This document shows positions 1,725-41,627 of a stretch of 64,000 nucleotides of DNA, in pieces. Numbering within the stretch: position 1 is the stretch's first letter; each line of letters begins with the position of its first letter. Made by a program: the position numbers and the translations under genes. Origin of the DNA: Selaginella tamariscina (Eukaryota > Streptophyta > Lycopodiopsida > Selaginellales > Selaginellaceae); contig PUQB01000964.1 in the NCBI GenBank assembly GCA_003024785.1, positions 1 through 64,000 on the forward strand, in the 5' to 3' direction. Below the pieces are notes generated by a model. That model saw nothing but the letters and a program-made list of their open reading frames with translations. It did not search any database and was not told where the DNA came from.

Positions 1725-1751
1725 ATGCAAGTTGTAACTAAAATGGGCATG
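1725..1751 (+). repeat. Left terminal inverted repeat, element copy 1
   Basis: A 27-bp TIR beginning ATGCAAGTTGTAACTAAA and ending TGGGCATG. It pairs with 15888-15914 with two mismatches (positions 6 and 19) and is identical to the left end of copy 2 at 26651. Confidence 0.9.
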
Positions 1752-2245
1752 GCTATAGTCCCATTTCCTAATAATTAGCAATTTTAGCTATTTAATTAGC
1801 ATTTTCTAATATTAAAGGAATATTCTTTAGAATATATATTTAAAAACAGAATATTCTATTTTGTAATCGACCCTTTAATAAATTATAGCATTCACTGAAC
1901 AAAAACTAATAACATTATAAAAGTAAAAGGTATTAAATTATATAATATATATATTTAAGATTGTATGGGCCTAATATAACAATTAAGGAAGAGCATAAAA
2001 GGTACATTATATAAATATTTATGTTGTTATTAAAATATTAATATTTAAATATAACATTATTAATTAAAAATTTGTAGTAGTAATAATATATATATATATA
2101 TATACAAAACCTATAATAATATAGTCAATCTTCCATATCGTTTTATAAATTTATATAGTTAAGTAAACAATTTGGTACTATTACTAAAGAGTTTATAATA
2201 ATTATGAATATTAAATATATGATATTTTATAATTCTGTAATTGCT
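1752..2245. other. AT-rich subterminal region, element copy 1
   Basis: A nearly pure A/T-rich stretch with several GAATATTC words and a TA run near 2090. It contains no ORF of note and is closely repeated in copy 2 (26678-27156). It probably holds the 3' untranslated region of the transposase gene and subterminal sequence. Confidence 0.5.
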
Positions 2246-5200
2246 TTAAGCTTCACAAAACATACATTCTTTTGCAGTTTTGTTAATCGTGACTTTATCA
2301 ACGCTTTTTGACATCCACCCATATCGAATGGATTTAACATTTATAAAACATGCTGGGTCTTTTTGATTGGGAGACCATGTTTTCTCTAGGCATCCATTAT
2401 ATCTTTCGCTCTCCTTCTCGTGTCGCCTTTTTTGTGGTTTGAACCATGCAACCTTAACCATATTATTGTTCGTGATTACTTCAGGTGTGTCGATAATTTG
2501 ACCCATCCAAATAGGCTGATTATATGACACATCTGGAGTAATGAGGACCATCATTAGTTTTTGAAGATCCTTGCAGCAATCAAAGTATGCTTTAGGTTTT
2601 TGGTTTTTTGTCCAACAAAGTGTGGGGTTTGCACTTCCACATCACTACTGGCTTCTATGTCGTCTGTGCTCAGTGATGTCATTTCAATCTCCTCTCGCCA
2701 CCTTGTTTTAGGCCAAAAAGGGTGTTGCAATTCTGTACTTGTGACAGTAGGCCCTTCTAACTCTCGAACAACAGTCTCCCAATAGTCGACCACATGCTTA
2801 TATAGTTCTGAGTAACCAGTTGCCTTATCAGAATTCTTTGGCATCAATTTTTGAACCCATGCCACATATTTTTTGAGGCCATCAATAATAACCTCTTGTT
2901 CCTTGAGCTGGGCACTCAATGGAATAGGGTCTGGTTGTCCTTCTGGGAGAAGTGGCTTTCCATTCTCTCCACTTTTGAAGAGCATTAAGCCCTCTTTCGG
3001 TAACCACTCCTGCTCTGATGGCCGTAACTTGTACTGCATAATAGGTATACCATCTCGTATGGAGAAAAAGAATTGTAGCGGCACAAGGTGACCAACTAAA
3101 GAATCACTCCCTTCTTTTATATACTCCTTGAGAAATTTTTTGAAGTCTGGCACCTCAGTCACAAGCAAAGCACAACTTTTTTTGGAGATGCAATTTTCAA
3201 AAAGATTCATCATATGCGGTAAAGTAAGTGCACTTGTTCTTTTTGTAGAGTTGGAGACCTTGCTGAAGAACGCATCAATATCTTCATGAGTGTGACCAAC
3301 CATAAGGAAATGAGCGTGATTGTTTCAAACACACCTTTGGCAACAAGCATTGACAAGTATGCTAGCACATATCTAGAAAATAAAAGTAAGTATGAGCTTG
3401 AGAAACCCTTAAGTCAAATGATTTACCTATTTTTGTTCTCGCCTGCACAATTATCCATCTGTAAAAGCAAATGACGAGGAAGCTTATTTGATGTTGAGGA
3501 CACATGTACACTATTTGAGCTAGATCCCTCCACTGAACCAGAACACTCAACAGGGCCATCTGTTTTCTGTGCAGGCTGTTGACAATGCCTCTCATATTCC
3601 CAAGTAGCCTCAAGTGCAGACGTGTTCATGAGAGCATTATGTAAAGATTGAAGGTGTTATTTCTTCACTTTGAGATCACTGATAGGACTTGTCTGTGAGT
3701 GGGCTTCAAGGTTTCTGAAACACATGGCTAACGACCCAATAGTGAAATTGGAGTCGCTAACCAATGTGGAAGTGAAAAGTGTCCATATGACTCACAACCG
3801 TGTCCATGTGTTAGCACACCTGTCAATGAAATCGGAAGTTTCATGACATTTCCAAGGCACTTTGGTGTTGCAAAGAGCTTTGGAATGCTGGTCTTTGAAT
3901 GATCCATCTTGTCATGGATCAAGCACAGGTACTCTGATGGGCGTGACACAGAAAGCATGCTGTGTGCATAGTACTGAGACCGGCAAGTTTGTTGTGCAAT
4001 CATGTGGGCCTCCATCTTCTTTTGAATGGCAGTGATCTCCACCAAGGTTTTTGCACAAGCCTCTGCAGCCTTCAATGATGTACAAATGTCACACTTGGAA
4101 AAGCTAGAGTGTTTTGCAATCTCCACATCCTTAAAATGAGTATTCCATATGTTGTTGAAGGTACCAGTGCAGATTGCTTGGAGCCCCATCAAACTGAGGC
4201 ACTTGTTCACATGTTCACACAGCTTCAATTGAGTGTAGATTGAAGGCAAAACCTTGAGATTTTCCTTGACCCCTGCATTTGTGGTTCGGCATTTGTGAGG
4301 CATCTTGTCTGCATTTGCTTCCACAAAAGCTTTGAGTATCTCTATGGCTGCCATGATGTGAGAGCGGGTTTTGACCAAGCGAGTGTTCCCATGAACTGAG
4401 GTTCGCGCTCCATCTAGCCACTCATCCCTCCGACGATAGAACGTGGTCTTTGGGATCCCGTATATACTGTACCAAGCTTTGAAGCAGATGGCCACCTTAT
4501 TAAATACCATGGATGTACTCTGATAACCTGTGTCCGAGGCCATTCCATCAATACACCCAGTTAGTGCAGCATATACAAACTCATGCCTTTGCTTTTGGGT
4601 AAGCATACAAAAGACATGTCTACATTGGGTAATTTCATTCCGGTCTGCCATCTGACAACACTTCTTCTTGCAACAGTCAATCGTGGAAATGCTCGTAACA
4701 CTTTCGGAAGATGTAGGATCCATCTTTACCCTCTTGCTGAAACTTGCAGGGGAAGATCTACAACCCATGAATCGCCTTTTTCTTACAATAGGACCAATGC
4801 AAGGAACCTCTTCAAATATGAGTTGTTCTTCCGAGTTGTTATTATTAAAATCCAACCCAGAATATGTTGAACCATCTTGCCGTCTTAATTCAGATGTTTG
4901 CCACCTCACAGGGATCCAGGATACAATGTGCCATTAGGTGAAACCTCTGTCACAACTACACCCACGAAGTCGGACCCTAGTTTCTCTTCTGACACTGCTT
5001 CCATTGGATTTATAGCTGTGATGATGCCTCTTCCGACTTCAATCTCACGAAGAAAGAGAATCACCTCATCCATCACAGCAGGCAAGCCATCATCTGGTAA
5101 ACTCGTGCTACTATTTGTTTGTGACTCTGCATATTTGTGTCAGCCTTGACTTCATCCAAATTCCACAATACAGGAGAACCCTCCTCAAATTCCATTCCCA

Positions 5201-5359
5201 GAACCTCAACATGCTTGAAAATGGTGTTCACCCATACGTACACACAAGATCCTTGGGAATATTGTGACATGATGCATTATTATCTCGAACTTCCACAGTT
5301 CCAGTGCCAACTATCTCGTTGTTCCGAAGAAGACATACTTTATCTCCAGTATTAAACAT
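2246..5359 (-). pseudogene. DUF7869-like DDE transposase of giant element, copy 1 (frameshifted)
   Basis: This is the presumed transposase that cuts and rejoins the element ends. From the N-terminus, MFNTGDKVCLL opens a small En/Spm-Tnp1-like beta domain. A basic/cysteine-rich segment (CCKKKCCQ) follows, then a helical region (TFYRRRDEW), a zinc-binding-like CDICTS, and an RNase-H-like core with candidate acidic residues in LIHDKMDHSKT, QMDNCAGENKNR and GHTHEDIDAFFS. An intron at 3373-3426 (GTAAAT...TTTCTAG) sits exactly after NKNR and preserves the frame. Compared with copy 2 there are single-base losses near 2610, 3310, 3760 and 4910, so the frame is broken repeatedly, yet the last exon (2246-2554) is intact here and broken in copy 2. 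DUF7869 proteins are widespread in plants and animals; calling this one a transposase rests on its position in the element and on the acidic residues. Confidence 0.75.
3373..3426 (-). other. Intron of the transposase gene, copy 1
   Basis: On the minus strand the sequence AAAAATAG is followed by GTAAATC, and TTTTCTAG precedes ATATGTGC. Removing these 54 bases joins NKN to RYVLAYLS in frame. The same intron is at 28285-28338. Confidence 0.75.
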
Positions 5360-5511
5360 ATTGTCCTGCACATAAATAATTGTATTATTTATGATATCTG
5401 TTTATGCAATATTTCTAAGAAATTTGAATTACTGTTACTTAATAATATGCATATGCAATAATACATAATTATGTTTAGAGATAATATCTCATGTTTGATT
5501 AATACAACTGA
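5360..5511 (-). other. Upstream of transposase coding region, with probable splice acceptor
   Basis: On the minus strand TTTATGTGCAG lies just before the first in-frame ATG region, a good acceptor. The first intron could therefore extend upstream through the palindrome array to donor-like sites near 6112 and 6240. Confidence 0.4.
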
Positions 5512-5941
5512 TGGGCGGGATTAATCCCGCCCACGAATCCCTCCGACGAGGAACGGTCGGTGGGATTAATCCCGCCCACAATTCTTACGACGGGGAATGG
5601 GTGGCGGGATTAAACCCGCACATAACTCTCTCCAAAACTATGATTTCAAAGAGATCTCGGGATAAATCCTGTCCCCAAATTTTTAAAACAGGGGAGTGGT
5701 GGCGAGATTAATCCCGCCACCCCTTCCCTGCCTCCTAAAATGGTTGGCGGGATTAATCCCGCCGACAACTCTTTCTAATAAATTTTGGTAATTCTTCATC
5801 AGTTGAGAAGGTTATCGGCGGGATTAATCCCGCCACTCTTTTTCAGTGGCGGAGAAGCATTGCCCGAGAGATGGTGGCGGGATTAATCCCGCCACCTCTT
5901 CGAAGAGGCGAAAAAGAAATGGCCGGATTAATCCCGCCGCC
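5512..5941. repeat. Palindrome array 1 of element copy 1
   Basis: The 18-bp perfect palindrome GGCGGGATTAATCCCGCC and one- to three-base variants recur about nine times with 25-60-bp spacers; about four are perfect. GC-rich islands stand out from AT-rich surroundings. Apparent proteins rich in GGINPA or AGLIPP are only the palindrome read through in different frames. The array lies 5' of the transposase gene. Confidence 0.9.
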
Positions 5942-6300
5942 CCGGTTAACCTAGAATATTAAGTTAAAAGGATATTTAAACGGGATAAATCTCTAGCGGA
6001 ATATATTATAATCCTAATGCATTCCTAAACCCCTAAATTGTAATTTTAAGAGAGAATGTAAGAGAGTGAATCTTTATAAGTATTTTTAAATTTGTTTATA
6101 ATACTTACTTGTAAACAGCACTGAAGGCGCCGTGCTTTCCTATAAAGAATAACACCCAATTTAATCTCGCTCCTGAGATGATCACTATGAAGAAAAAAGA
6201 AGATCTAAAGAGTGAAAAATACAGAAATGAAGAAACCCTTACCGGAGAAAGAACCAGATCTGAATTTGAGTGGGAAATTAAATGCATTTTCAAATTTACA
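5942..6300 (-). other. Conserved leader-like region with a 62-codon ORF, copy 1
   Basis: A minus-strand ORF (6293-6105) ends FIGKHGAFSAVYK and is conserved in copy 2 (31720-31508, 70 codons). The strand contains good donor-like sites (CCG-GTAAGG and ACAA-GTAAGTATT). It may be a 5' untranslated exon of the transposase transcript rather than a gene. The hydrophobic run FFFIVIISGA could alternatively be a short membrane peptide. Confidence 0.35.
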
Positions 6301-7320
6301 TGTCAGACCGATAATACATATGTCAGAAATTCAAATTTTTTAAAAAAACAGAAAATAAAATTTAAGATGAGTTGACACAAATATCCGACACTCTGACATA
6401 TATACTCTCCAGTTCCAATGAGTATTTTAAAATTGCATTTAATGTTATTTAAGTGATTCAAGCTGTTTAATATTACGAAATTTTACACTATATTCTACAT
6501 TCTTAGTATTCAAGTATATTTATATATATATATATATATAATATATACTTATACAATAAATAAATTGATATATCATTATGTATCATTTAAAATATATTCA
6601 TAGTCTGTTTATTATTATTATTTTCTTAATTACTCGAGTATTTAGTTTTCATTTCCTAGTATCAATGGGATATTCTTTAATATTTTATTAATATTTGAAT
6701 ATATTCTAATATTAAACCTGATTATCATAATTAAATTAGTCTTGTTCTTAATTATTGCAGTAATTATTCTACATTTGTATATATTAATGGGATTTTCTCA
6801 ATTAATTTGTTATTATTTCAAGAATATTCATGTGTTAAACCTTATTATCAATATTAAATTAATATATATTATTAAAACTATATATGACTATATATTAGAT
6901 AAAATGATGTATTATTATGTATAATTTAAAATATGTTCATAGTGTGTATATTAATATCATTTCCTTAATTACTTGAGTAATTAATCTTCTTTATATTAAT
7001 GGGATATTCTTTATTATTTTCTTATTATTCCAAGAATATTCCAATATTAAACATGATTATGATAATTAATTTAGTTAATTATTTGAGTACTTAATTTACA
7101 TTTGTATATATTAATGGGATTTTCTCAATTAATTTCTTATTATTTCAAGAATATTTCAATGTTAAACCTTTTTATCAATATTAAATTAATATATATTATT
7201 AAAACTATATATGGCTATATATTAGATAAAATCATATATTATTATGTATAATTTAAAATATATTCATAGTGTGCTTATTAATATTATTTTCTTAATTATT
7301 CGATGTTTGTTTTGCACACA
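6301..7320. other. AT-rich spacer with internal tandem similarity, copy 1
   Basis: About 1 kb of A/T-rich sequence holds a 170-200-bp unit repeated in degenerate form (TATTAATGGGATATTCTTTA and TATTAATGGGATTTTCTCAA words). No gene is visible. In copy 2 a short segment of this region (about 32270-32360) is inverted. Confidence 0.6.
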
Positions 7321-8590
7321 TATATAAACATAATCATAAATTTACACACGCATTACAAGAACTTACAAAACATATGCACACACATGCACAACCCTAAACC
7401 AAACTGAAGAAATATGTTGCTTCTTTATTAAAACATCATGTTCAACGCATGTATGATATATGTACTCAATCTGTGTATGTAACACATTGAATTTACATGT
7501 GTAATATTTATATTAAGCTTGTTAGGAGCAAACCCTAAACCCTAAACCCTAAACCCTGTGTATACATGTGTGTACAAAAATAATTTTTCAACACTCTCTC
7601 TTCACACCATGCATGATCCATCCTAAACCCTAAACCCTAATATGTAACACAATGAATTTACTCATGTAATATGTATGTATGTCTGTGTGTATACACGTGT
7701 GTATGTATATATGTGTACTTTCTCTCTTCTCTCATACATACACACCATGCATGATCCATGTTAATATGTACTGTCTCTCTTCTCTCAAACATACACACCA
7801 TGCATGATCTATAATATGTACTCGGTCTCTCTAATATTATGTACTAATATGTATGTATGTCTGTGTGTATAATACACACCATGCATGATCCATAATATGT
7901 ACTGTCTCTCTTCTCTCATATACTATGTATGTATATCTGTGTATAATATGTGTAAGTATATATGTGTACTAATATATGCAATGTGTACAAAAATAATTTT
8001 TCAACACTCTCTCTTCTCTCATACATACACACCATGCATGATCCATCCTAAATCCAAAACCCTAAACCCTAAACCCTAAACTCATGTAATATGTATGTAT
8101 GTCTGTGTGTATACACGTGTGTATGTATATATGTGTATTAATATATGCAATGTGTATGAATTTAATACTTTAACACTCTCTCTCTTCTCTCATGCATACA
8201 CACCATGCATGATCCATGTTAATATGTACTGTCTCTCTTCTCTCAAACATACACAATATGATCCATAATATGTACTCTGTCTCTCTAATATTATGTACTA
8301 ATATGTATGTATGTTTATGTGTATAAAACTATGTGTGTATGTATGTATTGATACACATGAAACTTTAACACTCTCATGGACACACACATGTTAAATCCCT
8401 GCATGATTTATATTTTTTGGGTGTATGTGATACACCCACGCACACGCACGCGCTAATAATATAATGAAAGAATATTCGTTTAGGGCGAATCTATATTTTA
8501 TTCTTTTTAGGGTTTAAGTATATTCTCAGAAGGAATATTTTATTAGGGTTAATATATATATTTAATTCCTTTAGGGTTTAGGTATATTCT
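7321..8590. repeat. TATG/CATG-rich minisatellites with interstitial telomere repeats, copy 1
   Basis: Short direct repeats recur, such as CACACCATGCATGATCCAT and AATATGTATGTATGTCTGTG. Runs of the plant telomere unit CCCTAAA occur at about 7531-7557, 7624-7641 and 8058-8082. No coding sequence is seen. Confidence 0.8.
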
Positions 8591-8629
8591 TAGGGTTTCA
8601 AGAGGCGGCGGCTGTGCACACAGGTGAGA

Positions 8630-8663
<34 letters not shown>

Positions 8664-9321
8664 TGTATATATGTATAGGAGTGTGCGTATAATTTTATTT
8701 ATTGATCTATCTCTCGCACACACACGCACACTCCTGTGTATATATATGTGTGTGTGGGTGTGTGTTTGTTTATCTGTATGATTTTATTTGTTTCGCTCAC
8801 ACACGCATACACACTACATATACACATATATATATATATATACTTATATACATATATACATACATATATTATGTGTACCAGTATCTATAAATTTTTTTTT
8901 ATTGATCTATCTCTCCCACACACACGCACACTGCTTTACATATATATATATATATATATATAATCAATGCATATTAACAAATAGTATACAACACTAGTTT
9001 ATATATATGCTTATATATTCATATGGGTTATATATCTATATACACACATATATATATGTGTGTGTTTATATGTATAATTTTATTTATTTATTAGTTTTAT
9101 CTCTCGCACACACACGCACACTCCTGTGTATATATATGTGTGTGTGTGTGTTTTGTTTATCTGTATGATTTTATTTGTTTCGCTCACACACGCATACACA
9201 CAATATACATATACACATATATATATACCTATATACATATATACATACATATATTATGTGTACCAGTATTTATATAATTTTTTTTATTGATCTATCTCTC
9301 CCACACACACGCACACTGCTT

Positions 9322-9358
<37 letters not shown>

Positions 9359-9725
9359 ATGCATATTAACAAATAGTATACAACACTAGTTTATATATAT
9401 GCTTATATATTCACAGACTCTCTCTCTTTCTCTATGGGTTATATATCTATATACACACATATATGTGTGTGTGTTTATCTGTATAATTTTATTTATTTAT
9501 TAGTTTTATCTTTCGCACACACACGCACACTCTTGTGTATATATATGTGTGTGTGTGTGTTTGTTTATCTGTATGATTTTATTTGTTTCGCTCACACGCA
9601 TACACACGATATACATATACACACATATATATACCTATGTACATATATACACACATATATTATGTGTACCAGTACTGTATAATTTTATTTATTTATTTAT
9701 CTCTTGCACACACACGTACACTCCT

Positions 9726-9758
<33 letters not shown>

Positions 9759-9846
9759 TATACACATATATATATGTGTGTGTTTTTATCTGTATAATTT
9801 TTTTATTTATTAATTTTATCTCTCGCACACACGCTAAGCCCCTCGA
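8591..9846. repeat. Microsatellite-rich roughly 400-bp tandem units, copy 1
   Basis: TG, TA and CA runs lie within a larger unit that repeats about three times. Landmarks are CGCACACACACGCACACTCC near 8716, 9106 and 9519, and TATTATGTGTACCAGTA near 8867, 9252 and 9658. ORFs here are translated microsatellite and not genes. Confidence 0.85.
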
Positions 9847-10728
9847 GCGGCGGGATTAATCCCGCCGCCCACCCATGCCTGCTGCGCGGAATGCGGCGGG
9901 ATTTATCTCGCCGGCAATGGCATGTGTGAAGGCCCTAATGGGCGGGATTAATCCCGCCGGATTCCGCACAGGGCATTTACAGGGGATGGGCGGCGGGATT
10001 AATCTCGCCGCTCGTGAGGCTAACCGAAGAGCCTGCATGAAAGATCCTGCACGGAAGGCTAACCGAAGAGCCTGCATGACATGTCCTGCGTGTAAGGCGG
10101 CGGGATTAATCCCGCCGCCCAGGGAATTCACGCAGGACAGGAACGGCGGGATTAATCCCGCCCCATGCTCATGCCCTTCGCGGAGGGTGGCGGGATTAAT
10201 TCCGCCGCTCAGGCACTTCCACAGGATATAAGCGGCGGGATTAATCCCGCCCCCACCCATCCCTGTTCAAAATGCCGTGGGATTAATCCCGCAGCCAATA
10301 TATATGTGTGAGAGCATGATTTACGAGAGGGCGGCGGGATTAATCTCTTCGAACCTTCTATGCCCGGTGGCGGGATTAATCCCGCCACCCTTCTTTTTTT
10401 CCTCCATTGGTACGTTGAATCAATCCCGACTAACTCTATCTGAGACGGAGAAGGTTTACAAAATACCAATGGAGGGAACTGAGAAGGGTGGTGGGATTAA
10501 TTTCACCATGCCTCCTAAAAGAGTGGGCGGATTAATCCCGCCGCCTTTCTGGAGCCCCTGAAGGGATGTGAGAAATAAATCCTGCCCAATTCTCTCTGAG
10601 AACGAGAAAGGTGGCGGGATTAATCCCGCACACCCATTCAGGGCCTCCAGAAAGGTGGCGAGATTAATCCCGCCCACTCTTTTAGGAGGCATAAAAGATG
10701 TGGCGAGATAAATCCCGCCGCACCTTCC
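9847..10728. repeat. Palindrome array 2 of element copy 1
   Basis: GGCGGGATTAATCCCGCC and variants occur about 16 times; about six are perfect (for example 9849, 9940, 10097, 10145, 10368). Spacers of 20-60 bp include the word CGGAAGGCTAACCGAAGAGC with a repeat. The array lies about 400 bp upstream of the ParB-like gene start. Confidence 0.9.
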
Positions 10729-10849
10729 ATGTGAATATATATGTTTATGACTATATATAAGTTGCATATCTCATTTTGTTTACTTTTATCATCTTATCAT
10801 AATATTTTGCTTATCATAATATTTTGAGTAAAAGCCAGTAAACCATGTA

Positions 10850-10938
10850 TAACTGTCCAAAGCTCACATTTGTGGTGGTTCTAAAACCAAATGTTATCAG
10901 TTTTTTGCACTATCACAAATGTTAGCTTTGGACAGTTA
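10850..10938 (+). promoter_or_regulatory. Conserved hairpin upstream of ParB-like gene, copy 1
   Basis: Arms 10850-10874 and 10914-10938 pair over 25 positions with one mismatch, around a 39-nt loop. The copy 2 homologue (36566-36652) keeps the fold although both arms have changed. Function is unknown; it could be a transcript structure or a protein-binding inverted repeat. Confidence 0.6.
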
Positions 10939-11098
10939 ATCCTGTCCACTTCTCTCAGGTGTATGTGAATTTATCAGTGTATTATTTTTGTATATTCGGG
11001 TTTAGACAAGTGTTTGTGCGTTTTTATATAAATTGTATTCATAGTGTATTATTTTGCAGAAGGACGATTTAATCAAATAAGGAGATTCAGTGATTAGT

Positions 11099-14000
11099 AT
11101 GGAGTCATCGTCAAATTCAGGGTAAGAATTAAAATAAAATCTGTTATACTCGGATATGTGCTTGAAGAATTAAATACTATTGTATACAGATGTGGAATTG
11201 AGGTGACATTGAAGACGAGAGCAGGAGAAGAGATGGGCAGGGGGATTCTGGAATCAACTTGGCCATATTTTAAGATAAATGGGAAGCGCATTGGAGCAAT
11301 CATGGTTGCTGTCAAATTAACCTCTGTCACATCTCATGGACAAGCAAAACAATGGAAAGTAGATTCGCTAGTCAAGCACCCGAAAGCAGGCTGCGAACCC
11401 AGATTGGACGATTCTCGACAGATATGCCTTGTTCCATCCAATGTCACGATCTCGGATCCAGAGGTCGCCAGTTACAACATAATCTCGGGTGGTTTGTCGA
11501 CTTGTGGATAATGATGTTCACGTGTTCACTAATGATGTTGACCTGGAGTTCTTCTTCAACTCAACGAAAGCCCATCTATGGAGGGGATCCATTGATGTCT
11601 ACTTCGAAGATCTTCAGACTCATCGAGTAGGTGTATTTCAGGAGAGATTGCTTCACAATATAGAAATCCACAAGTGGAGCAATCTTCCCTCTTCACATTG
11701 AAGAAGAACACAGCGACATCATAAGGGAGATTGAGAGGGTGGCTCGGTCTCAGGTTCTCTACAGATCACGTTCAATTTGCTTAGGAAGCTTCGGGAGCTG
11801 GAAGAGTGTGCCGAGAACACTAGAACAGCTGCAGTCGGGGATCACACATGTTGATTCGGATCGCAAAAGAAAATCATCAATCGTTTTGTCAGCTGCACCT
11901 GTGGCATCTCATGCTGCAATAAGTCACAAGGAAATGATGTTGGATGAAAGATTTATCTTGTAGGTTAAATATTGCAGCGTCAACCCAAACTTCAATTACA
12001 GGCCACTCAACCAGGAACGTGTAGCTGAGCTCATGGAGAAGATGAAGGACGACAATTCTTATACCGTTCCACATAATGCTGTTTTGTGTCCATACTATGA
12101 AAGAAGGAAGGGCGCTGACAAAGTCTGGATCACAACACCAGAACAACTCATGAAGATTCAGACGGAGAATAGAAAATCTATCAAGTACTACATCATTAGT
12201 GGCCAGCACACAATAACGGCAGCCCAACGACTTCTCGATGAACACAACAAAGGAACGATGGCAACAAAACTTTCCGAGCATACCCGTGAGAAGCTGACAA
12301 AAAGATCGGTGTTTTTAGCTAAGCCGAATCTCACAATCGAGCAGTACCATAAGTTATCGGCGGAATGGGACGCTGCCGACACCAACCACTACAACAGCAA
12401 AATGGGAGAAGTTTAAACACACGCGAGCCGTGTGGGAATCTCTTGAGCGACCACAAAGAGCTACTGCAGGAATACACAATCTGCGAACTACCGGGTAAGC
12501 AAATTGTTTGGGCGGGATTTATCTCGCCGGTATATTAATCTGTCTTTTTTCTCAGAGAGTTGAAGAAATTGCAGCAGTTGATTTTGCCCAGGTGGGCGGG
12601 AAGGAAACATCCTTTCTGATGATGTTGATTTCTTGCCCCGAAGATAGGATCTTTGCCAAATGGTTGGGGATTATGGAATCCTTTTCAAAAGGAACACTGA
12701 AGAAGAAGCAGACAAGTGAAGGGGAGCCCTCAGAGAAGTCTGCAAAGAAACCCAGTAAGACGCCAAGGCTAAGTCTGTTCAATCTACAAAGGATGTAGAC
12801 AACGATTTCAAGCTCACATGGTTGAAGCCTTTAAATGGAACAACGATGGAGGAGATGGAAGTCTTGGCTGATTTGGTGATCGATGGCAAACTACAAATTA
12901 ATAACAGCAGCCCAACCTCTCCTTTTCATCTCAAGGCAATGGAGTTGAAGACGGTCAGGCATTTCAAGGAGTGGTTGGGAATACACTGCCACAAACTGGG
13001 TTGGACCTCGACTCAACATATGAAGAGGTCAGCAAATATTTGCATGTGACGAACGATGATATGCTTGTCGAATGGGTGAACCAATCGGAAGATCTAGGCA
13101 AGAATCTATTGCACGCCAACGCCAAAAAGGAGAACATTGGGATGACGCCTTCTCTTATGGCAGTCCTTCAGCAGCGGAGAACCGAATTGAACCTTATAAA
13201 GGAGGATGCTACGAATCACGACAAGCCCTACAGATGTTTGTTGTTAATTCGGAGACTTTATGGGGTAACATCACTGCTTGTAGGAAACCGTTTCAATTGT
13301 TCGTGATGGATCGGCGGTGTCAAAAAATCTTTCGACAGATAGGGCACTAGAGGATCTGGTGGAGAAACTTAGCCGTGCAAGCATATACATAGAAGGTATT
13401 TATTATTGAATTCATGCTTGCGCTCTTCACTGATACCTACTTTTTCAGGTATTTATTTCTTGATTCTTGCTCATGTCACCGATACTTTTGCCTTCGCCTT
13501 CGCCAAGAAGAATAGACATCGTTGGACAGGATTTTATATGAACGATGCTAATCCCAAGTGCATTGATATCGTTGTTCACTTGGTTGTTAGGAATGCGCCA
13601 AACAATTTCAAGCTTCCAAATGACTGGCCAGGCATCTGTTTGCACTCCAACGGCCCTGAACCTCCATCCGATACACCGATAGGTGAGTGACGTATTCGGC
13701 AATGTACGTTATCCAAACATCAAAGTCAAGCGGCACGGAGCATCGTCAACTTGATTAGGGGTCCTCACAGTGATGCGTGGGTTTTTGACTACTGCACTAG
13801 GGGGTCCGTCTTGAAGGAGTGTTACCTTCGGCATACATGTGTGTTTGCCGTTGAAAAGGATAAGACCATGGTTGAGGACCTGAACAAGTGGATAGATAGG
13901 TTCTCAACTGAGTACCCCAACGAATCCATAAAGGAGTATTTGAGAAAGTTCCCTCCAGATAAGTGCGATAGCTCTGAAGGCGAATCTGGTTCAATGTCGG

Positions 14001-26650: not shown

Positions 26651-26677
26651 ATGCAAGTTGTAACTAAAATGGGCATG
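26651..26677 (+). repeat. Left terminal inverted repeat, element copy 2
   Basis: Identical to 1725-1751, preceded by the CCAA duplication. Confidence 0.9.
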
Positions 26678-30274: not shown

Positions 30275-30427
30275 ATTGTCCTGCACATAAATAATTGTAT
30301 TATTTATGATATCTGTTTATGCAATATTTTTAAGAAATCTGAATTACGGTTACTTAATAATATGCATATGCAATAATACATAATTATGTTTAGAGATAAT
30401 ATCTCATGTTTGATTAATACAACTGAT

Positions 30428-31346: not shown

Positions 31347-31740
31347 GGTTAACCTAGAATATTAAGTTAAAAGGATATTTAAACGTGATAAATCCCTAAC
31401 GGAATATATTATAATCCTAATGCATTTCTAAACCCCTAAATTGTAATTTTAAGAGAGAATGTAAGAGAGTGAATCTTAATAAGTATTTTTAAATTTGTTT
31501 ATAATACTTACTTGTAAACAGCACTGAAGGCGCCGTGCTTTCCTATAAAGAATAGCACCCAATTTAATCTCGCTCCTGAGATGATCACTATGAAGAAAAA
31601 AGAAGATCTAAAGAGTGAAAAATACAGAAATGAAGAAACCCTTGCCGGAGAAAGAACCAGATCTGAATTTGAGTGGGAAATTAAATGCATTTTCAAATTT
31701 ATGTCAGACCGACAATACATATGTCAGAAATTCAAATTTT
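31347..31740 (-). other. Conserved leader-like region with a 70-codon ORF, copy 2
   Basis: Counterpart of 5942-6300. The minus-strand ORF 31720-31508 ends FIGKHGAFSAVYK, immediately followed by an excellent donor-like ACAA-GTAAGTATT. It is more likely an upstream exon of the transposase transcript than a separate gene, but the frame is kept in both copies. Confidence 0.35.
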
Positions 31741-32700
31741 TTAAAAAGAACAGAAAATAAAATTTAAGATGAGTTGACACAAATATCCGACACTCTGACA
31801 TATATACTCTCCAGTTCCAATGAGTATTTTAAAATTGCATTTAATGTTATTCAAGTGATTCAAGCTGTTTAATATTACGAAATTTTAGACTATATTCTAC
31901 ATTCTTAGTATTCAAGTATATTTATATTATATATATATATATAAATATATACTTATACAATAAATAAATTGATATATTATTATGTATCATTTAAAATATA
32001 TTCATAGTCTGTTTATTATTATTATTTTCTTAATTACTCGAGTATTTAGTTTTCATTTCCTAGTATCAATGGGATATTCTTTAATATTTTATTAATATTT
32101 GAAGAATATTCTAATATTAAACCTGATTATCATAATTAAATTAGTCTTGTTCTTAATTATTGCAGTAATTATTCTACATTTGTATATATTAATGGGATTT
32201 TCTCAATTAATTTGTTATTATTTCAAGAATATTCATGTGTTAAACCTTATTATCAATATTAAATTAATACACACTATGAACATATTTTAAATTATACATA
32301 ATAATACATCATTTTATCTAATATATAGTCATATATAGTTTTAATAATATATATATTAATATCATTTCCTTAATTACTTGAGTAATTAATCTTCTTTATA
32401 TTAATGGGATATTCTTTATTATTTTCTTATTATTCCAAGAATATTCCAATATTAAACATGATTATGATAATTAATTTAGTTAATTATTTGAGTACTTAAT
32501 TTACATTTGTATATATTAATGGGATTTTCTCAATTAATTTCTTATTATTTCAAGAATATTTCAATGTTAAACCTTTTTATCAATATTAAATTAATATATA
32601 TTATTAAAACTATATATGGCTATATATTAGATAAAATCATATATTATTATGTATAATTTAAAATATGTTCCTAGTGTGTTTATTAATTTTATTTTCTTAA
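31741..32700. other. AT-rich spacer, copy 2, with a small inversion
   Basis: Matches 6301-7320 except that about 32265-32355 is the reverse complement of the corresponding copy 1 segment (around 6855-6945), a local inversion between GTGTTAAACC-type flanks. No coding sequence is seen. Confidence 0.5.
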
Positions 32701-33812
32701 TTATTCGATGTTTGTTTTGCACACATATATAAACACAATCATAAATTTACACACGCATTACAAGAACTTACAAAAACACATATGCACACACATGCACAAC
32801 CCTAAACCAAACTGAAGAAATATGTTGCTTCTTTATTGAAAACATCATGTTCAACGCATGTATGATATATGTACTCAATCTGTGTATATGTAACACATTG
32901 AATTTACATGTGTAATATTTATATTAAGCTTGTTGGGAGCAAACCCTAAACCCTAAACCCTAAACCCTAATATGTAACACAATGAATTTACTCATGTAAT
33001 ATGTATGTATGTCTGTGTGTATACACGTGTGCATGTATATATGTGTACTCTGTATGTATATATGTGTACTTTCTGTCTTCTCTCATACATACACACCATG
33101 CATGATCCATGTTAATATGTACTGTCTCTCTTCTCTCAAACATACACACCATGCATGATCTATAATATGTACTCGGTCTCTCTAATATTATGTACTAATA
33201 TGTATGTATGTCTGTGTGTATAATACACACCATGCATGATCCATATTAATATGTACTGTCTCTCTTCTCTCATATACTATGTATGTATATCTGTGTATAA
33301 TATGTGTAAGTATATATGTGTACTAATATATGCAATGTGTACAAAAATAATTTTTCAACACTCTCTCTTCTCTCATACATACACACCATGCATGATCCAT
33401 CCTAAATCCAAAACCCTAAACCCTAAACCCTAAACCCATGTAATATGTGTGTATGTCTGTGTGTATACACGTGTGTATGTATATATTATGTGTATTAATA
33501 TATGCAATGTGTACACATGAAACTTTAACACTCTCATGGACACACACATGTTAAATCCCTGCATGATTTATATTTTTGAGGTGTATGTGATACACCCACA
33601 CACACGCACGCGCTAATAATATAATGAAAGAATATTCGTTTAGGGCGAATCTATATTTTATTCTTTTTAGGGTTTAAGTATATTCTCAGAAGGAATATTC
33701 TATTAGGGTTGATATATATATTTAATTCCTTTAGGGTTTAGGTATATTCTTAGGGTTTCAAGAGGCGGCGGCTGTGAAATCGGCGGCGGCGGCTGTGCAC
33801 ACAGGTGAGATC

Positions 33813-33843
<31 letters not shown>

Positions 33844-34063
33844 ATATGTATAGGAGTGTGCGTATAATTTTTTTTTAGTTTTATCTCTCGCACACACACG
33901 CACACTCCTGTGTATGTATATGTGTCTGTATGATTTATTTGTTTCGCTCACACACGCATACACACGATATACATATACACATATATATATATATACCTAT
34001 ATACATATATACATACATATATTATGTGTACCAGTATCTGTAAATTTTTTTTATTGATCTTGC

Positions 34064-34135
<72 letters not shown>

Positions 34136-34200
34136 GTGTACCAGTATCTGTAAATTTTTTTTTATTGATCTATCTCTCCCACACACACGCGCACTGCTTT

Positions 34201-34251
<51 letters not shown>

Positions 34252-34944
34252 ATCAATGCATATTAACAAATAGTATACAACACTAGTTTATATATATGCT
34301 TATATATTCATATATACACACATATATATATGTGTGTGTTTTTGTATAATTTTATTTATTTATTAGTTTTATCTCTCGCACACACACGCACACTCCTGTG
34401 TATGTATATGTGTGTGTGTGTGTGTTTGTTTATCTGTATGATTTTATTTGTTTCGCTCACACACGCATACACACAATATACATATACACATATATATATA
34501 CCTATATACATATATACATACATACAACACTAGTTTATATATATGCTTATATATTCACAGACTCTCTCTCTTTCTCTATAGATTATATATCTATATACAC
34601 ACATATATATGTGTGTGTTTATCTGTATAATTTTATTTATTTATTAGTTTTATCTTTTGCACACACACGCACACTCCTGTGTATATATATATGTGTGTGT
34701 GTGTGTTTGTTTATCTGTATGATTTTATTTGTTTCGCTCACACGCATACACACGATATACATATACACACATATATATACCTATGTACACACATATATTA
34801 GGTGTACCAGTACTGTATAAGTTTATTTATTTATCTATCTCTTGCACACACACGTACACTCCTATACATACATACATACATACATATATATATATATACA
34901 CACACATATATATGTGTGTGTGTTTTTATCTCGCTAAGCCCCTC
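32701..34944. repeat. Minisatellite, telomere-repeat and microsatellite core, copy 2
   Basis: CCCTAAA runs occur at about 32941-32969 and 33413-33436. Long CA, TA and TG runs lie at 34067-34130 and 34201-34250. The 400-bp tandem unit of copy 1 is present in altered number. No gene is seen. Confidence 0.8.
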
Positions 34945-36455
34945 GAGCGGCGGGATTAATCCCGCCGCTATATAGTTGGGGCCATGGCGGCGGGATTAAT
35001 CCCGCCGCCGAGGCCCTTCAGGCATGGGTGAGCGGCGGGATTAATCCCGCCGCCGAGGCCCTTCACGCAGGCTATGGGCGGCGGGATTAATCCCGCCGCT
35101 CTACGACAAACCGAAGAGCGGCGGGATTAATCCCGCCGCCCATAGCCTGCGTGAGGGGCCTCGGCGGCGGGATTAATCCCGCCGCTCATCCATGCCCTGC
35201 GCGGAATGCGGCGGGATTTATCTCGCCGGCAATGGCCTGTGTGAAGGTTCTAATGGGCGGGATTAATCCCGCCGGATTCCGCGCAGGGCATTTACAGGGA
35301 ATGGGCGGCAGGATTAATCCCGCCGCTCTTCGGTTTGTCGTAGAGCGGCGGGATTAATCCCGCCTCCCAGGGAATTCACGCAGGACATGAACGGCGGGAT
35401 TTATCCGGCCCCACGCTCATGCCCTTCGCGGAGGGCGGCGGGATTAATCCCGCCGTTCATGTCCTGCGTGAATTCCCTGGGCGGCGGGATTAATCCCGCC
35501 CCCCATCCCTGTTGAAAAATGCCGCAGCCAATATATATGTGTGAGCGCATGATTTACGAGAGGGCGGCGGGATTAGTCTCTCCGAACCTTCATTGCCCGG
35601 TGGCGGGATTAATCCCGCCACCCTTCTTTTTTTCCTCCATTGGTATGTTGAATCAATCCCAACTAACTCTGTCTGAGACGGAGAAGGTTTACAAAATACC
35701 AATGGAGGGAACCGAGAAGGGTGGTGGGATTAATTTCACCATCCCTTACATGGTGGGCGGGATTAATCCCGCCGCGTACGCATGCCCTGCGCGGAATCGG
35801 GCGGGATTTATCCCGCCGCCATTGGCCTGCCTGAAGGGCCTAGGCGGCGGGATTAATCCCGCAAGATTTCGCACAGGGCATTGGCGTTCGGCGGGATTAA
35901 TCCCGCCGACTAAGGCCCGAGTGAAGGGCCTGGGAGGCGGGATTAATCCCGCCGAACGCCAATGCCCTGTGCGAAATCGGGCGGGATTAATCCCGCCCGA
36001 TTCCGCGCAGGGAATTGGCGTCCGGCGGGATTAATCCCGCCGCATAGGGATCGAGTGAAGGCCCTGGCCGGCGGGATTAATCCCGCCGAGTCTTCAATGC
36101 CTGTTGGAGAAATGAATCTCGCCACCCTTCCCTTTTTCCTCCATTGGTGAGTTGGACCAATCCCAAACGTTTCTGTCTAAGACGTAGAAGGTTTACAACA
36201 TACCAATGGAGGGGACTGGGAAGGGTGGCGAGATTCATTTAACCATCCCTTACATGGTGGGCGAGATTAATCCCGCCTCCTTTCTGGAGTCACTGAAGGG
36301 GTGTGAGAAATAAATCCTGCCCAGTTCTCTCTGAGACCGAGAAGGGTGGCAAGATTAATTCCGCACTCCCGTTCAAGGCCTCCAGAAAGGTGGCGAGATT
36401 AATCCCGCCCACTCTTTCAGGAGGCATTGAAGGGGTGGCGAGATTAATCCGCCGC
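34945..36455. repeat. Palindrome array 2 of element copy 2 (expanded)
   Basis: About 17 perfect and 10 imperfect copies of GGCGGGATTAATCCCGCC. Spacers are themselves arranged as inverted pairs: CTCTACGACAAACCGAAGAG (about 35100) and its complement (about 35327), and CCATAGCCTGCGTGA and its complement, so nested long hairpins are possible. It ends about 340 bp before the ParB-like gene. Confidence 0.92.
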
Positions 36456-36565
36456 ACCTTCCATGTGAATATATGTGTATTAGTATATATAAGTTGCATA
36501 TCTCATTTTATTTACTTTTATCATCTCTTCATATTATTTCGAGTAAAAGCTAGGAATCTATGTAA

Positions 36566-36652
36566 AACTGTCCAGAGCTCACATTTGTGGTGGTTCTAAA
36601 ACGAAATGTTATCTTTCTTTTGCACTAACACAAATGTGAGCTTCGGACAGTT
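36566..36652 (+). promoter_or_regulatory. Conserved hairpin upstream of ParB-like gene, copy 2
   Basis: Arms 36566-36589 and 36629-36652 pair with two adjacent mismatches. At the position mismatched in copy 1 this copy has a C:G pair. It lies 140 bp upstream of the ATG. Confidence 0.6.
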
Positions 36653-36793
36653 AATTACGTCTACTTCTCTCTGTGTATTATTTTTGTATATTCGGTTTAT
36701 ACAAGTGTGTGTGCGTTTTTATATAATTTATATTTATAGTGTATTATTTTGCAGAAGGACGATTTGATCAAACAAGGAGATCGAGTCATTAGT

Positions 36794-39700
36794 ATGGAGT
36801 CGTCGTCAAATTCTGGGTAAGAATTAAAATAAAATCTGTTATACTCGGATACTTGAACTAATCATTTTTGTATTCAGATGTGGAATTGAGTGACATTAAA
36901 GTCAAGAGCAGGAGAAGAGATGGGCAGGGGGATTCTGGAATCAACTTGGCCATATTTTAAGATAAATGGGAAGCGCATTGGAGCAACCATGGCTGCTGTC
37001 AAATTAACCTCTGTCACATCTCATGGACAAGTAAAACAATGGAAAGTTGATTCGCTAGTCAAGCACCCGAAAGCAGGCTGCGAACCCAGATTGGACGATG
37101 CTCGACAGATATGCCTTGTTCCATCCAATGTCACGTTCTCGGATCCAGAGGTCGTCAGTTACAACATTAATCTCGGGTGGTTTTGTCGACTTGTGGATAA
37201 TGACGTTCACGTGTTCACTAATGATGTTGACCTTGGAGTTCTTCTTCAACTCAACGAAAGCCCATCTATGGAGGGGATCCATCTGGATGTCTACTTCGAA
37301 GATCTTCAGACTCATCGAGTAGGTGTATTGTCAGGAGATATTGTTTTACAATACAGAAAATCAGCAAGTGGAGCAATCTTCCCTCTTGACATTGAAGAAG
37401 AACACAGCGACATCATAAGGGAGATTGAGAAGGTGGCTCGGTCTCAGGTTCTCTACAGATCACGTTCAATTTGCTTAGGAAGCTTCGGGAGCTGGAGGAG
37501 TGTGCCGAGAACACTAGAACAGCTGCAGTCGGGGATCACACATGTTGATTCGGATCGCAAAAGAAAATCATCAATCGTTTTGTCAGCTGCACCTGTGGCA
37601 TCTCATGCTGCAATAAGTCACAAGGAAATGATGTTGGATGATAAGATTTATCCTTGTAGGGTTAAATATTGCAGCGTCAACCCAAACTTCAATTACAGGC
37701 CACTCAACCAGGAACGTGTAGCTGAGCTCATGGAGAAGATGAAGGACGACAATTCTTATACCGTTCCACATAATGCTGTTTTGTGTCCATACTATGAAAG
37801 AAGGAAGGGTGCTGACAAAGTCTGGATCACAACACCAGAACAACTCATGAAGATTCAGACGGAGAATAAAAGATCTATCAAGTACTACATCATTAGTGGC
37901 CAGCACACAATAACGGCAGCCCAACGACTTCTCGATGAACACAACAAAGGAACGATGGCAACAAAACTTTCCGAGCATACCCGTGAGAAGCTGACAAAAA
38001 GATCGGCGTTTTTAGCTAAGCCGAATCTCACAATCGAGCAGTACCATAAGTTATCGGCGGAATGGGACGCTGCCGACACCAACCACTACAACAGCAAAAT
38101 ATGGGAGAAGTTTAAACACACGCGATCCGTGTGGGAATCTCTTGCGACCACAAAGAGCTACCGCAGGAATACACAATCTGCGGAATACCGGGTAAGCAAA
38201 TTGTTTGGGCGGGATTTTATCTCGCCGGTATATTAATCTGTCTTTTTCCTCAGAGAGTTGAAGAAATTGCAGCAGTTGATTTTGCCCAGGTGGGCGGGAA
38301 GGAAACATCATTTCTGATGATGTTGATTTCTTGCCCCGAAGATAGGATCTTTGCCAAATGGTTGGGGATTATGGAATCCTTTTCAAAAGGAACACTGAAG
38401 AAGCAGACAAGTGAAGGGGAGCCCTCAGAAAAGTCTGCAAAGAAACCCAGTAAGACGCCGAAGGCTAAGTCTGTTCAATCTACAAAGGATGTAGACAACG
38501 ATTTCAAGCTCACATGGTTGAAGCCTTTAAATGGAACAACGATGGAGGAGATGGAAGTCTTGGCTGATTTGGTGATCGATGGCAAACTACAAATTAATAA
38601 CAGCAGCCCAACCTCTCCTTTTCATCTCAAGGCAATGGAGTTGAAGACGGTCAGGCATTTCAAGGAGTGGTTGGGAATACACTGCCACAAACTGGGTTGG
38701 ACCTCGACTTCAACATATGAAGAGGTTAGCAAATATTTGCATGTGACGAACGATGATATGCTTGTCGAATGGGTGAACCAATCGGAAGATCTAGGCAAGA
38801 ATCTATTGCATGCCAACGCCAAAAAGGAGAACATTGGGATGACGCCTTCTCTTATGGCAGTCCTTCAGCAGCGGAGAACCGAATTGAACCTTATAAAGGA
38901 GGATGCTACGAATCACGACAAGCCCTACAGATGTTTGTTGTTAGATTCGGAGACTTTATGGGGTAACATCACTGCTTGTAGGAAACCGTTTCAATTGTTC
39001 GTGATGGATCGGCGGGTGTCAAAAAATCTTTCGACAGATAGGGCACTAGAGGATCTGGTGGAGAAACTTAGCCGTGCAAGCATATACATAGAAGGTATTT
39101 ATTATTGAATTCATGCTTGCGCTCTTCACTGATACCTACTTTTTCAGGTATTTATTTCTTGATTCTTGCTCATGTCACCGATACTTTTGCCTTCGCCTTT
39201 GCCAAGAAGAATAGACATCGTTGGACAGGATTTTATATGAACGATGCTAATCCCAAGTGCATTGATACTGTTGTTCACTTGGTTGTTAGGAATGCGCCAA
39301 ACAATTTCAAGCTTCCAAATGACTGGCCAGGCATCTGTTTGCACTCCAACGGCCCTGAACCTCCATCCGATACACCGATAGGTATGAGTGACGTATTCGG
39401 CAATGTACGTTATCCAAACATTACAAGTCAAGCGGCACGGAGCATCGTCAACTTGATCAGGGGTCCTCACAGTGATGCGTGGGTTTTTGACTACTGCACT
39501 AGGGGGTCCGTCTTGAAGGAGTGTTACCTTCGGCATACATGTGTGTTTGCCGTTGAGAAGGATAAGACCATGGTTGAGGACCTGAACAAGTGGATAGATT
39601 GGGTCTCAACTGAGTACCCCAACGATTCCATAAAGGCGTATTTGAGAAAGTTCCCTCCAGATAAGTGCGATAGCTCTGAAGGTGAATCTGGTTCAATCTC

Positions 39701-39893
39701 GGAGTCTGAGAACGAACATCAATCAGATATTAGACCGGAAGTTATCTCGAGGAGTACAGAACATTCGCACACTCCAGGACCCATGGAAACATCAATAGAA
39801 GATGCAGAAGATCTTGAACCATCTCACAAGCGGCTTAGACCTTCTTCGCCTCATTCAGAAGGTAATAGCGAAGAAGAATTGATAATGAATTGA
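36794..39893 (+). pseudogene. ParB-like/DNA-methyltransferase-like protein gene, copy 2 (one frameshift)
   Basis: Exons: 36794-36816, 36878-38191, 38254-39094 and 39148-39893, all with GT-AG junctions; about 970 residues. The only clear break is a one-base loss near 36889, present as G in copy 1. Regions: residues about 8-95, beta-rich domain (GRGILESTWPYFKINGKRIG); about 265-400, ParB/sulfiredoxin-like fold with YRPLNQERVAELMEKMKDD and YYIISGQHTITAAQRLL; about 480-520, Lys/Ser/Pro-rich linker (KKPSKTPKAK), a possible nuclear signal; about 640-870, methyltransferase-like module with LFVMDRRVSKN where DPPY-type motif IV would be expected and WVFDYCTRGSVLKECYLRHT plus VFAVEKDK as motif I; then an acidic tail. 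Role: DNA binding or partition-like function is inferred. Methylation activity is doubtful because the DPPY motif is absent. Confidence 0.75.
38192..38253 (+). other. Intron 2 of ParB-like gene with palindrome relic, copy 2
   Basis: A GT-AG intron. 38208-38226 is a degenerate array palindrome (GGCGGGATTTTATCTCGCC), as in copy 1. Confidence 0.65.
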
Positions 39894-40098
39894 TAAAGTG
39901 ATGAATAGTTGTAAATGAGTGTAACATAAGGCATTTTTGTATATTTTCTTTTATATTTGTACAGAAAATAAATTCTCAAGGATTAATGAAGCTTTTAGTT
40001 CAAACATGGGTCACACATTAACAAGGTAAATAATATACCTTGATAATTTTAAGGTCAGCTAATTATCATTTTGCAGATGTAATGAAATAATTGAGAAC

Positions 40099-41338
40099 AT
40101 GGATTTTCAGCATTGCCATGAGGTAAGAGAGGGGTTTGGCGACAATTTCTTGTGCCACATGTCAGAATGACAGAGTTCATGCAGGAAATGGATAATAATG
40201 CAGCTCAAAACATCGTTACCATGGGGGCCACTTCAGTTTTTGCATCATCATTTTTATTGGCTTCAGTTCCGAAATCAATTTCTTCAGCGCATGCAATATC
40301 TGAATCTTGTAAGGATGATGTACAATTAAATGATGAAGGGATAGGCAACGAAATAGTGGCAACGGATAAATGTGAAAGGGAGCAAACAAGTGATTTGCAA
40401 AGTATTCAAGAGGCAACGCTATCTCACGTTACTCATGGCCATATTGTGTTGTTGGATGTCAATGGTGTTCTGCTTCATCGACAAAGGCCCAGGATAGAAA
40501 AACAGAAATCAAACAAGGAGATTTCATTCCTTGTCATGGTAAATTTCGATATATATTATTTTTCGTCCAGGGTTGGATCGTCTCTTTCAAAAGCTTAAGG
40601 AGATGGGTGCGCTTGTGGGGATTTGGTCATGCATGCAGATTCATAACTTAACACCGCTGTTGAGTTTACTTAAGAAACATTGTAGTGTTGCAGAAGAGGT
40701 GATTCGTAAAGATTGGATTTTTGACCAGCGAATGTGTTATAAACCTCTCGAATTTCACAATATAGAAAGGAAAGCAAGCCATACTTCTTCAAGAATGAAA
40801 GAATAATTGGGACTCATGGGGAGATCAGTCGCTTAAGGATAACGAAGAATGCACATATCTTAGTAGTAGACGACTCTCCTCAGAAGGCTATGCTCAACCA
40901 AAACATTGCTTGTATTCATCCAATCACTTTCGATCCATATTCTGATATCGATATCATGGATGAGCTAGTGAACTACTTGGATACGTGCCTCAGAAAGAAG
41001 AATCTCGAAAATTTTTGTGAGCAGTATCCACCGTATCATACATTTCCTGAAGCTTTTCTTTCTCGTGATATTGAATTTTATAAAATGAAGGATAGCAACC
41101 GGGCGCTTTATAATATTATTCTTAAGGAACGTCAGTTTTTAGATGAGCCTTTATGCAGACCTTTCTTATCACATCTTATGTATTAACAAGGATGGCAACT
41201 CCCAATTGCATTCGTGAGAGTGTTAAGTGGTGGCAACAACATCAAGATATTGACCAAAATGATTTGATTAATCCGGAGAGTGATGATTTAGACAAAATGA
41301 AAAGATTTCTTTGTATGATAGAAAGAAAGTATTTATAA
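40099..41338 (+). pseudogene. FCP1/NIF-type HAD phosphatase-like gene, copy 2 (frameshifted)
   Basis: Exon 1 is 40099-40122 (MDFQHCHE), the intron 40123-40184, and exon 2 continues EMDNNAAQNI. The HAD motifs of copy 1 are present (LLDVNGVLLHR, GIWSCMQIHN, LVVDDSPQKAM). Frame breaks occur near 40491, 40553, 40765 and 41160, whereas the region near 41065 (SRDIEFYKMKDSNRALYN) is intact here and broken in copy 1. The expected protein is about 390 residues. FCP1-like enzymes dephosphorylate proteins such as the RNA polymerase II tail; the element-borne substrate is unknown. Confidence 0.65.
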
Positions 41339-41600
41339 AAAAATTAACATGTTGATAAGAAAATGATTTCATTTGTAATTATGTTTGATAGTATTTCTTC
41401 ATTATTGTAAACTATTTTTAGAATAATATGAATATTCTAAGATATTTTAGGAATATTCCTTACTAAGTAAGGTTATTGAAGGATTAATTAATTAATTAAT
41501 TAATATTTAAGGCTTAATTACATATTAATTAAATGATTAATTAATAATTAAAACTTAAGTATTAATTAGTAATTTATTTTATATTCCCATTTTCACGTAT

Positions 41601-41627
41601 CATGCCCACTTTAGTTACAACGTGCAT
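41601..41627 (-). repeat. Right terminal inverted repeat, element copy 2
   Basis: Ends ...AGTTACAACGTGCAT, the same terminus as copy 1, followed by CCAA at 41628-41631. Confidence 0.9.

Follow-up and report, generated by a model that had tools for sequence, protein, structure and literature searches.

Two copies of a three-gene element in the window

The window analysed here is a 64,000-nucleotide stretch of the Selaginella tamariscina genome (contig PUQB01000964.1 of assembly GCA_003024785.1, handled below as contig C1353). It contains two copies of an element of 14-15 kb with a common gene order, comprising a transposase gene with a DUF7869 domain, an orphan gene (gene 2) and an FCP1/NIF-like gene (gene 3). 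Each copy is bounded by terminal inverted repeats (TIRs) of 27 bp and by a 4-bp target-site duplication (TSD); copy 2 resides in a long terminal repeat (LTR). The copies, their ends and their empty sites are located as follows.

1725-15914, plus strand: element copy 1, 14,190 bp, TSD AAGT
1721-1724, no strand: TSD AAGT, left of copy 1
15915-15918, no strand: TSD AAGT, right of copy 1
1725-1751, plus strand: left TIR of copy 1
15888-15914, minus strand: right TIR of copy 1, 25/27 to the left TIR
26651-41627, plus strand: element copy 2, 14,977 bp, TSD CCAA, inserted in an LTR
26647-26650, no strand: TSD CCAA, left of copy 2
41628-41631, no strand: TSD CCAA, right of copy 2
26651-26677, plus strand: left TIR of copy 2
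41601-41627, minus strand: right TIR of copy 2
51204-51207: empty site of copy 1, AAGT, within a duplicate of the copy 1 flanks
54974-54977: empty site of copy 2, CCGA, within a related LTR

In each copy the left and right TIRs share 25 of 27 positions, and the element termini read ATGCA. Between the copies there are no differences at all in the TIRs, left end matching left end and right end matching right end. Over the coding parts, most blocks of 500 alignment columns reach 97-99% identity (gaps ignored), and the middle of the element differs between the copies in repeat length.

Both insertions can be compared with an unoccupied counterpart. The joined flanks of copy 1 align across 51204-51207 with 88.6% identity over 393 columns, and on the right flank the alignment picks up again about 0.77 kb beyond this stretch. 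For copy 2, 1,000 bp of joined flank aligns with the LTR region around 54974-54977 (91%, 1,008 columns), where the empty site CCGA differs from the TSD CCAA by a single substitution. An earlier note on this DNA had described two copies of this size with a shared gene order, the same TIR structure, different duplications and precise insertion, all of which these comparisons bear out.

The empty site of copy 1 has its source in a duplication of the copy 1 surroundings (1-1724 and 16031-18175), which recur, partly inverted, at 50298-53605, 50 kb away.

A predicted DDD transposase

The transposase gene is interrupted by a short intron and its frame is broken in both window copies.

2246-5359, minus strand: transposase gene of copy 1, two exons, 54-bp intron, broken frame
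27157-30274, minus strand: transposase gene of copy 2, exons 30274-28339 and 28284-27157, broken frame, DUF7869 (PF25273)

The frame of 1,021 codons is open in 8 of the 30 loci examined. The AlphaFold2 (AF2) model of the protein (predicted local distance difference test, pLDDT, 82.9) displays an RNase-H fold, in which D169 ends strand 1, D327 ends strand 4, and D367 and D369 begin the helix after it. Among 34 relatives, D169 and D327 are invariant and D367 and D369 are at least 90% conserved. The model resembles Rous sarcoma virus (RSV) integrase, Mos1, Metnase, Hermes and Tn5 according to VIA-align; a Foldseek search against PDB returned no match at E ≤ 0.001, with Tn5 on top at 7.5e-3. The DUF7869 protein is thus modeled as a likely RNase-H-fold DDD transposase with a predicted catalytic role, and the assignment made in the earlier note holds through both the PF25273 match and the predicted integrase-like DDD fold. 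An uncharacterised domain of plants and animals would thereby gain a likely function. The ratio of nonsynonymous to synonymous differences (pN/pS) relative to an open reference is 0.36 for copy 1 and 0.09 for copy 2; across the window copies and the open reference, it stays below 0.6 for the transposase, gene 2 and gene 3.

Relatives of the DUF7869 protein were found across land plants and animals. Those of Physcomitrium and Riccia belong to the same family as the element transposase (30-36% identical) and fall outside its nearest clade in a quick tree, in which the predicted proteins P0001 and P0002 (49%) are nearest. Further relatives (L095, L096, L097 and L098; 26-30%) come from metagenome-assembled genomes (MAGs) of cyanobacteria, Shimia and Bacteroidetes, where they sit on small contigs that could be eukaryotic contamination.

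Genome-wide abundance and target-site duplications

The 300.7-Mb assembly (1,391 contigs) was searched for the TIR and for one sequence tag per gene (41 bases for the transposase, 44 for gene 2 and 41 for gene 3), allowing up to 3 mismatches. The TIR pattern gave 4,496 matches (2,310 + 2,186) and its reversed control none; the tags gave 1,844 (transposase), 1,634 (gene 2) and 1,896 (gene 3) matches, again with controls at 0. Most TIR ends seem to be part of gene-bearing copies, since twice the number of gene tags amounts to 73-84% of the TIR matches. A full-length copy behind every tag would put the family at up to about 8-9% of the assembly, which overstates its real share.

Co-occurrence was assessed among the exact matches listed for contigs C1 to C91 (to about 436 kb on C91), and the rates are minimum values because partners carrying mismatches escape. 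An exact transposase match lies 8-16 kb from 32 of the 57 gene 3 matches listed, in the divergent arrangement seen in the window, and 34 of these 57 have an exact, inward-facing TIR at 0.9-1.4 kb. Likewise, 33 of the 64 transposase matches listed have an exact TIR at 0.9-2.2 kb. Autonomous transposon copies are normally fewer than short derivatives. A three-gene DNA transposon of 14-15 kb with some 1,600-1,900 matches per gene tag is therefore unusual. Recent activity can be tested, as there are nearly identical copies whose frames are open.

For the TSDs, 22 plus-then-minus TIR pairs less than 26 kb apart were drawn from the first exact TIRs listed, a set that includes alternative partners for three ends (C42, C80 and C84). 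Identical 4-bp TSDs flank 11 of the 22 pairs, compared to 3 of 456 cross-pairs without a common end (5 of 462 when shared ends are kept). Among pairs spanning 13.7-15.5 kb, 8 of 16 have matching TSDs; beyond 26 kb this applies to one of three, and the further pairs L009/L010 and L012/L013 do not match. The matching words (ATGT, ATTA, GTAG, AAGA, TAGA, TATC, AAGG, CGTT, CTAT, TGGT and ATAA) reveal no fixed target sequence and are not exclusively AT-rich.

We consider it highly probable that these copies belong to a family of autonomous cut-and-paste DNA transposons, 14-15 kb in size, with three genes and the palindrome arrays described below. The family encodes its transposase on one strand, and gene 2 and an FCP1/NIF-like phosphatase-fold protein on the other. 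We are most confident that the transposase acts on the TIRs, cutting there and integrating the element with a 4-bp stagger. What speaks against this interpretation is that half of the tested pairs (11/22) lack matching 4-bp TSDs. The genome search proposed in the earlier note supports the element definition in the number of TIR matches and in the co-occurrence of the internal genes, so that the refutation envisaged there does not apply, although the duplications agree with the definition in half of the pairs only. Misassembly, recombination between copies or insertion without a TSD may account for the pairs of canonical span without matching flanks, which include L020/L021, L025/L026, L062/L063, L066/L067, L078/L079 and L087/L088. 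Two more pairs, L076/L077 (11.6 kb) and L085/L086 (6.7 kb), have left-type ends on both sides with differing flanks and are possible derivatives.

The large size, the several genes and the TIRs would also suit an integrated virus or a Polinton-like element. We regard such an origin as exceedingly improbable: the TSDs are 4 bp long, no capsid, polymerase or packaging domain was detected by Pfam in nine element stretches, and viral contigs searched with the transposase alignment and with gene 2 exon 2 yielded no relative.

Relation to Sola and other known transposons

The Sola superfamily was reportedly introduced by Bao et al. in 2009. The element shares the features described for it, namely a 4-bp TSD, a DDD triad on a predicted RNase-H fold, TIRs and size, and differs from it in two extra genes, the palindrome arrays and the extreme abundance of gene-bearing copies. 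To our knowledge, Sola has no counterparts of the two extra genes. According to a review, Sola elements have a DDD transposase, a 4-bp TSD, a length of mostly 2-9 kb with some above 15 kb and TIRs of 11-1124 bp, and are known in Physcomitrella (PMC10741241); Physcomitrella Sola1 is also catalogued in another review (PMC9033089). We favor, with some reservation, the classification as a giant Sola-like element. The wording 'Sola-like' instead of Sola was chosen because the likeness is to published descriptions of features and not to a Sola sequence. The earlier note had proposed an undescribed transposon class; a real DNA transposon it is, but the claim of a new class is too strong, as TSD, DDD triad, TIRs and size fit the Sola descriptions, which also place the superfamily in a moss.

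Alternatively, the transposase might derive from an unnamed DDE/D superfamily whose 4-bp TSDs and DDD triad are convergent with Sola. In favor of this, PF25273 is a domain of unknown function, DUF7869 was not mentioned in the literature searched, and its relatives are spread over both land plants and animals. We nevertheless find this origin rather doubtful, given that the element shows every Sola feature that was checked and that Physcomitrella, for which Sola is reported, has a DUF7869 protein as well.

Sola2-Fanzor elements of amoebozoa likewise have 4-bp TSDs and an extra gene, along with short TIRs of 12-21 bp and a transposase of 888 aa (PMC3627910). Their cargo is Fanzor1, whereas no Fanzor/TnpB domain was detected by Pfam in the nine element stretches scanned, and the TSDs of the element range beyond AT-rich words, unlike theirs.

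Other superfamilies were considered, three of which (CACTA, KDZ and Mutator-like) are rejected on TSD length. Published descriptions assign a 3-bp TSD and CAC termini to CACTA/EnSpm, against a 4-bp TSD and ATGCA termini here, and an 8-bp or 7-bp TSD to KDZ (Zisupton/Kyakuja), again against 4 bp. Academ elements combine an Academ-type transposase with a linked nuclease; the Pfam scan of the nine element stretches detected no nuclease domain. Mutator-like elements have TSDs of 7-12 bp (PMC10741241), against 4 bp in the element, which leaves the analogy in logic with VANDAL/VANC, addressed below, unaffected. TIR elements are abundant in mosses, mainly CACTA by the annotation of the papers (PMC9946827, PMC11704416); the passages searched in PMC7466625 do not name Sola.

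Palindrome arrays upstream of two divergent genes

Both copies contain two arrays of an 18-bp palindrome that the earlier note had overlooked.

5514-5938: palindrome array A of copy 1, 8 sites (≤ 3 mismatches), upstream of the transposase
30429-31341: palindrome array A of copy 2, 18 sites (≤ 3 mismatches), upstream of the transposase
9849-10719: palindrome array B of copy 1, 15 sites (≤ 3 mismatches), upstream of gene 2
34949-36409: palindrome array B of copy 2, 25 sites (≤ 3 mismatches), upstream of gene 2

Allowing up to 3 mismatches, the perfect palindrome GGCGGGATTAATCCCGCC has 24 sites in copy 1, 43 in copy 2 and none elsewhere in the window, and a shuffled window has no site at up to 4 mismatches. 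A single weaker site of copy 1, at 12511, is located inside an intron of gene 2. A literature search with the palindrome core GGGATTAATCCC returned nothing related and one unrelated mention. Array A is present in all 30 transposase loci; the 1,500 bp upstream contain 8-19 sites (median 17.5; ≤ 2 mismatches) and the downstream side none. Its modal spacing is 45 bp, and the distance from the last site to the transposase open frame is 111-112 bp in 28 of the 30 loci and 135 bp in the other two.

Ordinary minisatellites without function could also produce such arrays. The site number upstream of the transposase does vary (8 to 19), and the flanking columns retain a partial consensus, as tandem duplication would leave. 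However, the palindromes have been preserved much better than the spacers: in the copy 2 arrays, palindrome columns are 93-100% conserved and flanking columns 33-67%, for sites preselected by palindrome likeness. When sites are selected by the left half only, the right half is still perfect in 18/19 (array A) and 20/27 (array B). As the element furthermore has two arrays apart from each other, both of them in front of a gene, we deem a minisatellite origin improbable.

The observed/expected CpG ratio of the copy 2 arrays is 1.12 and 1.04 (0.89 and 0.78 with the palindromes removed), compared to 0.41 for the transposase gene and 0.45-0.53 for the flanks. Gene 2 (0.75), gene 3 (0.73) and the element middle (0.70) are intermediate, so the contrast with the arrays is greatest for the transposase gene and host DNA.

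Genome-wide, 27,128 exact palindrome sites were counted (control 0). The first 100 sites listed all come from contig C1: 96 of them have an exact gene tag within 7 kb (8.6% expected by length), and the other four have an exact TIR within 5 kb.

We give close to even weight to the proposal that an element protein, in all likelihood that of gene 2, binds these arrays and thereby activates or unsilences the element. A DNA-binding protein would occupy multi-site arrays, one in front of each divergent transcription unit. We favor a self-targeting role, activating or anti-silencing, for which gene 2 is the prime candidate, because the listed sites cluster with the element, precede both divergent genes, outlast their spacers and are not CpG-depleted. 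It is possible, though less probable, that the protein bound to the arrays is instead the transposase or a transcription factor of the host and that the arrays act as strong promoters. Their position directly upstream of the transposase and of gene 2 would fit this, as would the palindrome half-sites, which we take to resemble E2F-type GGCGGG and GGATT cores. Yet the arrays lie thousands of bases from the element ends, unlike the sites of an end-binding transposase, and the exact sites cluster with the element among the first 100 listed, whereas those of a host factor are expected elsewhere too.

Gene 2, an orphan candidate for array binding

11099-14190, plus strand: gene 2 of copy 1, 4 exons, end approximate
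36794-39893, plus strand: gene 2 of copy 2, exons 36794-36816, 36878-38191, 38254-39094 and 39148-39893

In locus L061, the four exons of gene 2 encode 976 aa. The whole protein was compared with Pfam, the exons with Pfam, PHROGs and PDB sequences, and two hand-cut segments with Pfam, NCBIfam and PDB sequences; only chance-level rows from unrelated families appeared. A protein search that required shared 5-residue words returned no relative at E ≤ 1e-3 among 7,614 word candidates. The ParB/methyltransferase-like cargo announced by the earlier note is accordingly not found: at the sequence-profile level, no ParB or DNA methylase family occurs in the profile listings up to E = 10, and these labels derive from motif resemblance alone. 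The rest of its cargo list, a transposase and an FCP1-like protein, stands. Modeled alone, exon 2 gives a low-confidence AF2 structure (pLDDT 32.8).

Gene 2 is apparently under purifying selection at the codon level, and not junk, because exon 2 has a pN/pS of 0.25-0.33 against an older copy, L099, in 7/7 non-independent comparisons. L099 has a synonymous difference of about 0.15 and one stop codon; among the five further copies that were compared it alone is diverged, each of the others matching the reference at about 99%. Between recent pairs, where changes are few, values range from 0 to about 2. Calculated over all of gene 2 against the reference, pN/pS comes to 0.51 for copy 1 and 0.45 for copy 2.

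VANDALs are Mutator-like elements. In Arabidopsis, the transposon protein VANC21 works via dense YAGTATTAY arrays in the non-coding parts of its own family (PMC5735166). VANDAL/VANC systems resemble the element in having extra genes and, in non-coding DNA of their own, short-motif arrays of a density found only in that family (PMC5735166). The VANC21 motif comprises 9 bases in a single orientation, whereas the element motif is an 18-bp palindrome and a putative binding site. Gene 2 might represent a new family of sequence-specific DNA-binding proteins that coats its own palindromes, shields the promoters from silencing and arose independently of VANC, and so enabled full copies of 14-15 kb, not short derivatives, to overrun the genome. 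This extended proposal we rate as unlikely. The element offers a test of whether motif arrays combined with an element-coded protein are a recurrent escape of transposons from plant silencing.

Gene 3, an FCP1/NIF-like protein

14462-15376, plus strand: gene 3 of copy 1, counted from the first Met in open frame 14417-15376 (319 codons)
40167-41187, plus strand: gene 3 of copy 2, broken frame

The FCP1-like cargo of the earlier note is confirmed by a match to NIF/FCP1 (PF03031) at 46.4 bits, against a gathering score of 21.8. The nucleophile motif reads D-V-N-G-V; active phosphatases have Asp at the position of the Asn. Judged by its residues, phosphatase activity of gene 3 is uncertain because of this replacement, and a role of its phosphatase-like product in aiding expression somehow would be speculative. 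Between copies 1 and 2, pN/pS of gene 3 is 0.36. No relative was found at E ≤ 0.01 among 884 candidates in a protein search that required shared 5-residue words.

Other features of the window and the genome

An Rfam scan of the window gave no match at gathering thresholds. A direct duplication (44080-49344 and 56864-62132; 96% identity, about 12.78 kb apart) contains an XRN-type 5'-3' exonuclease gene (PF03159, PF17846) that adjoins LTR-like repeats and has a 442-codon open frame at 57847-59175. An imperfect inverted repeat is located at 19084-19810 and 20822-21631, with arms of about 0.7-0.8 kb, 86% identity and about 1 kb between the arms, and a tandem repeat with a 112-bp unit extends over 62666-63868 (eight overlapping 300-nt matches).

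Elsewhere in the genome, the rbcL-like frame L104 encodes Pro and Ser at positions where Leu and Phe are usual in rbcL, as if heavy C-to-U RNA editing were needed. Together with the named relatives of the transposase, this frame points to a land plant. A weak RuBisCO match at C908:137911-138201 lies within an open frame of 48,820 residues, which is perhaps a masked or repetitive stretch.

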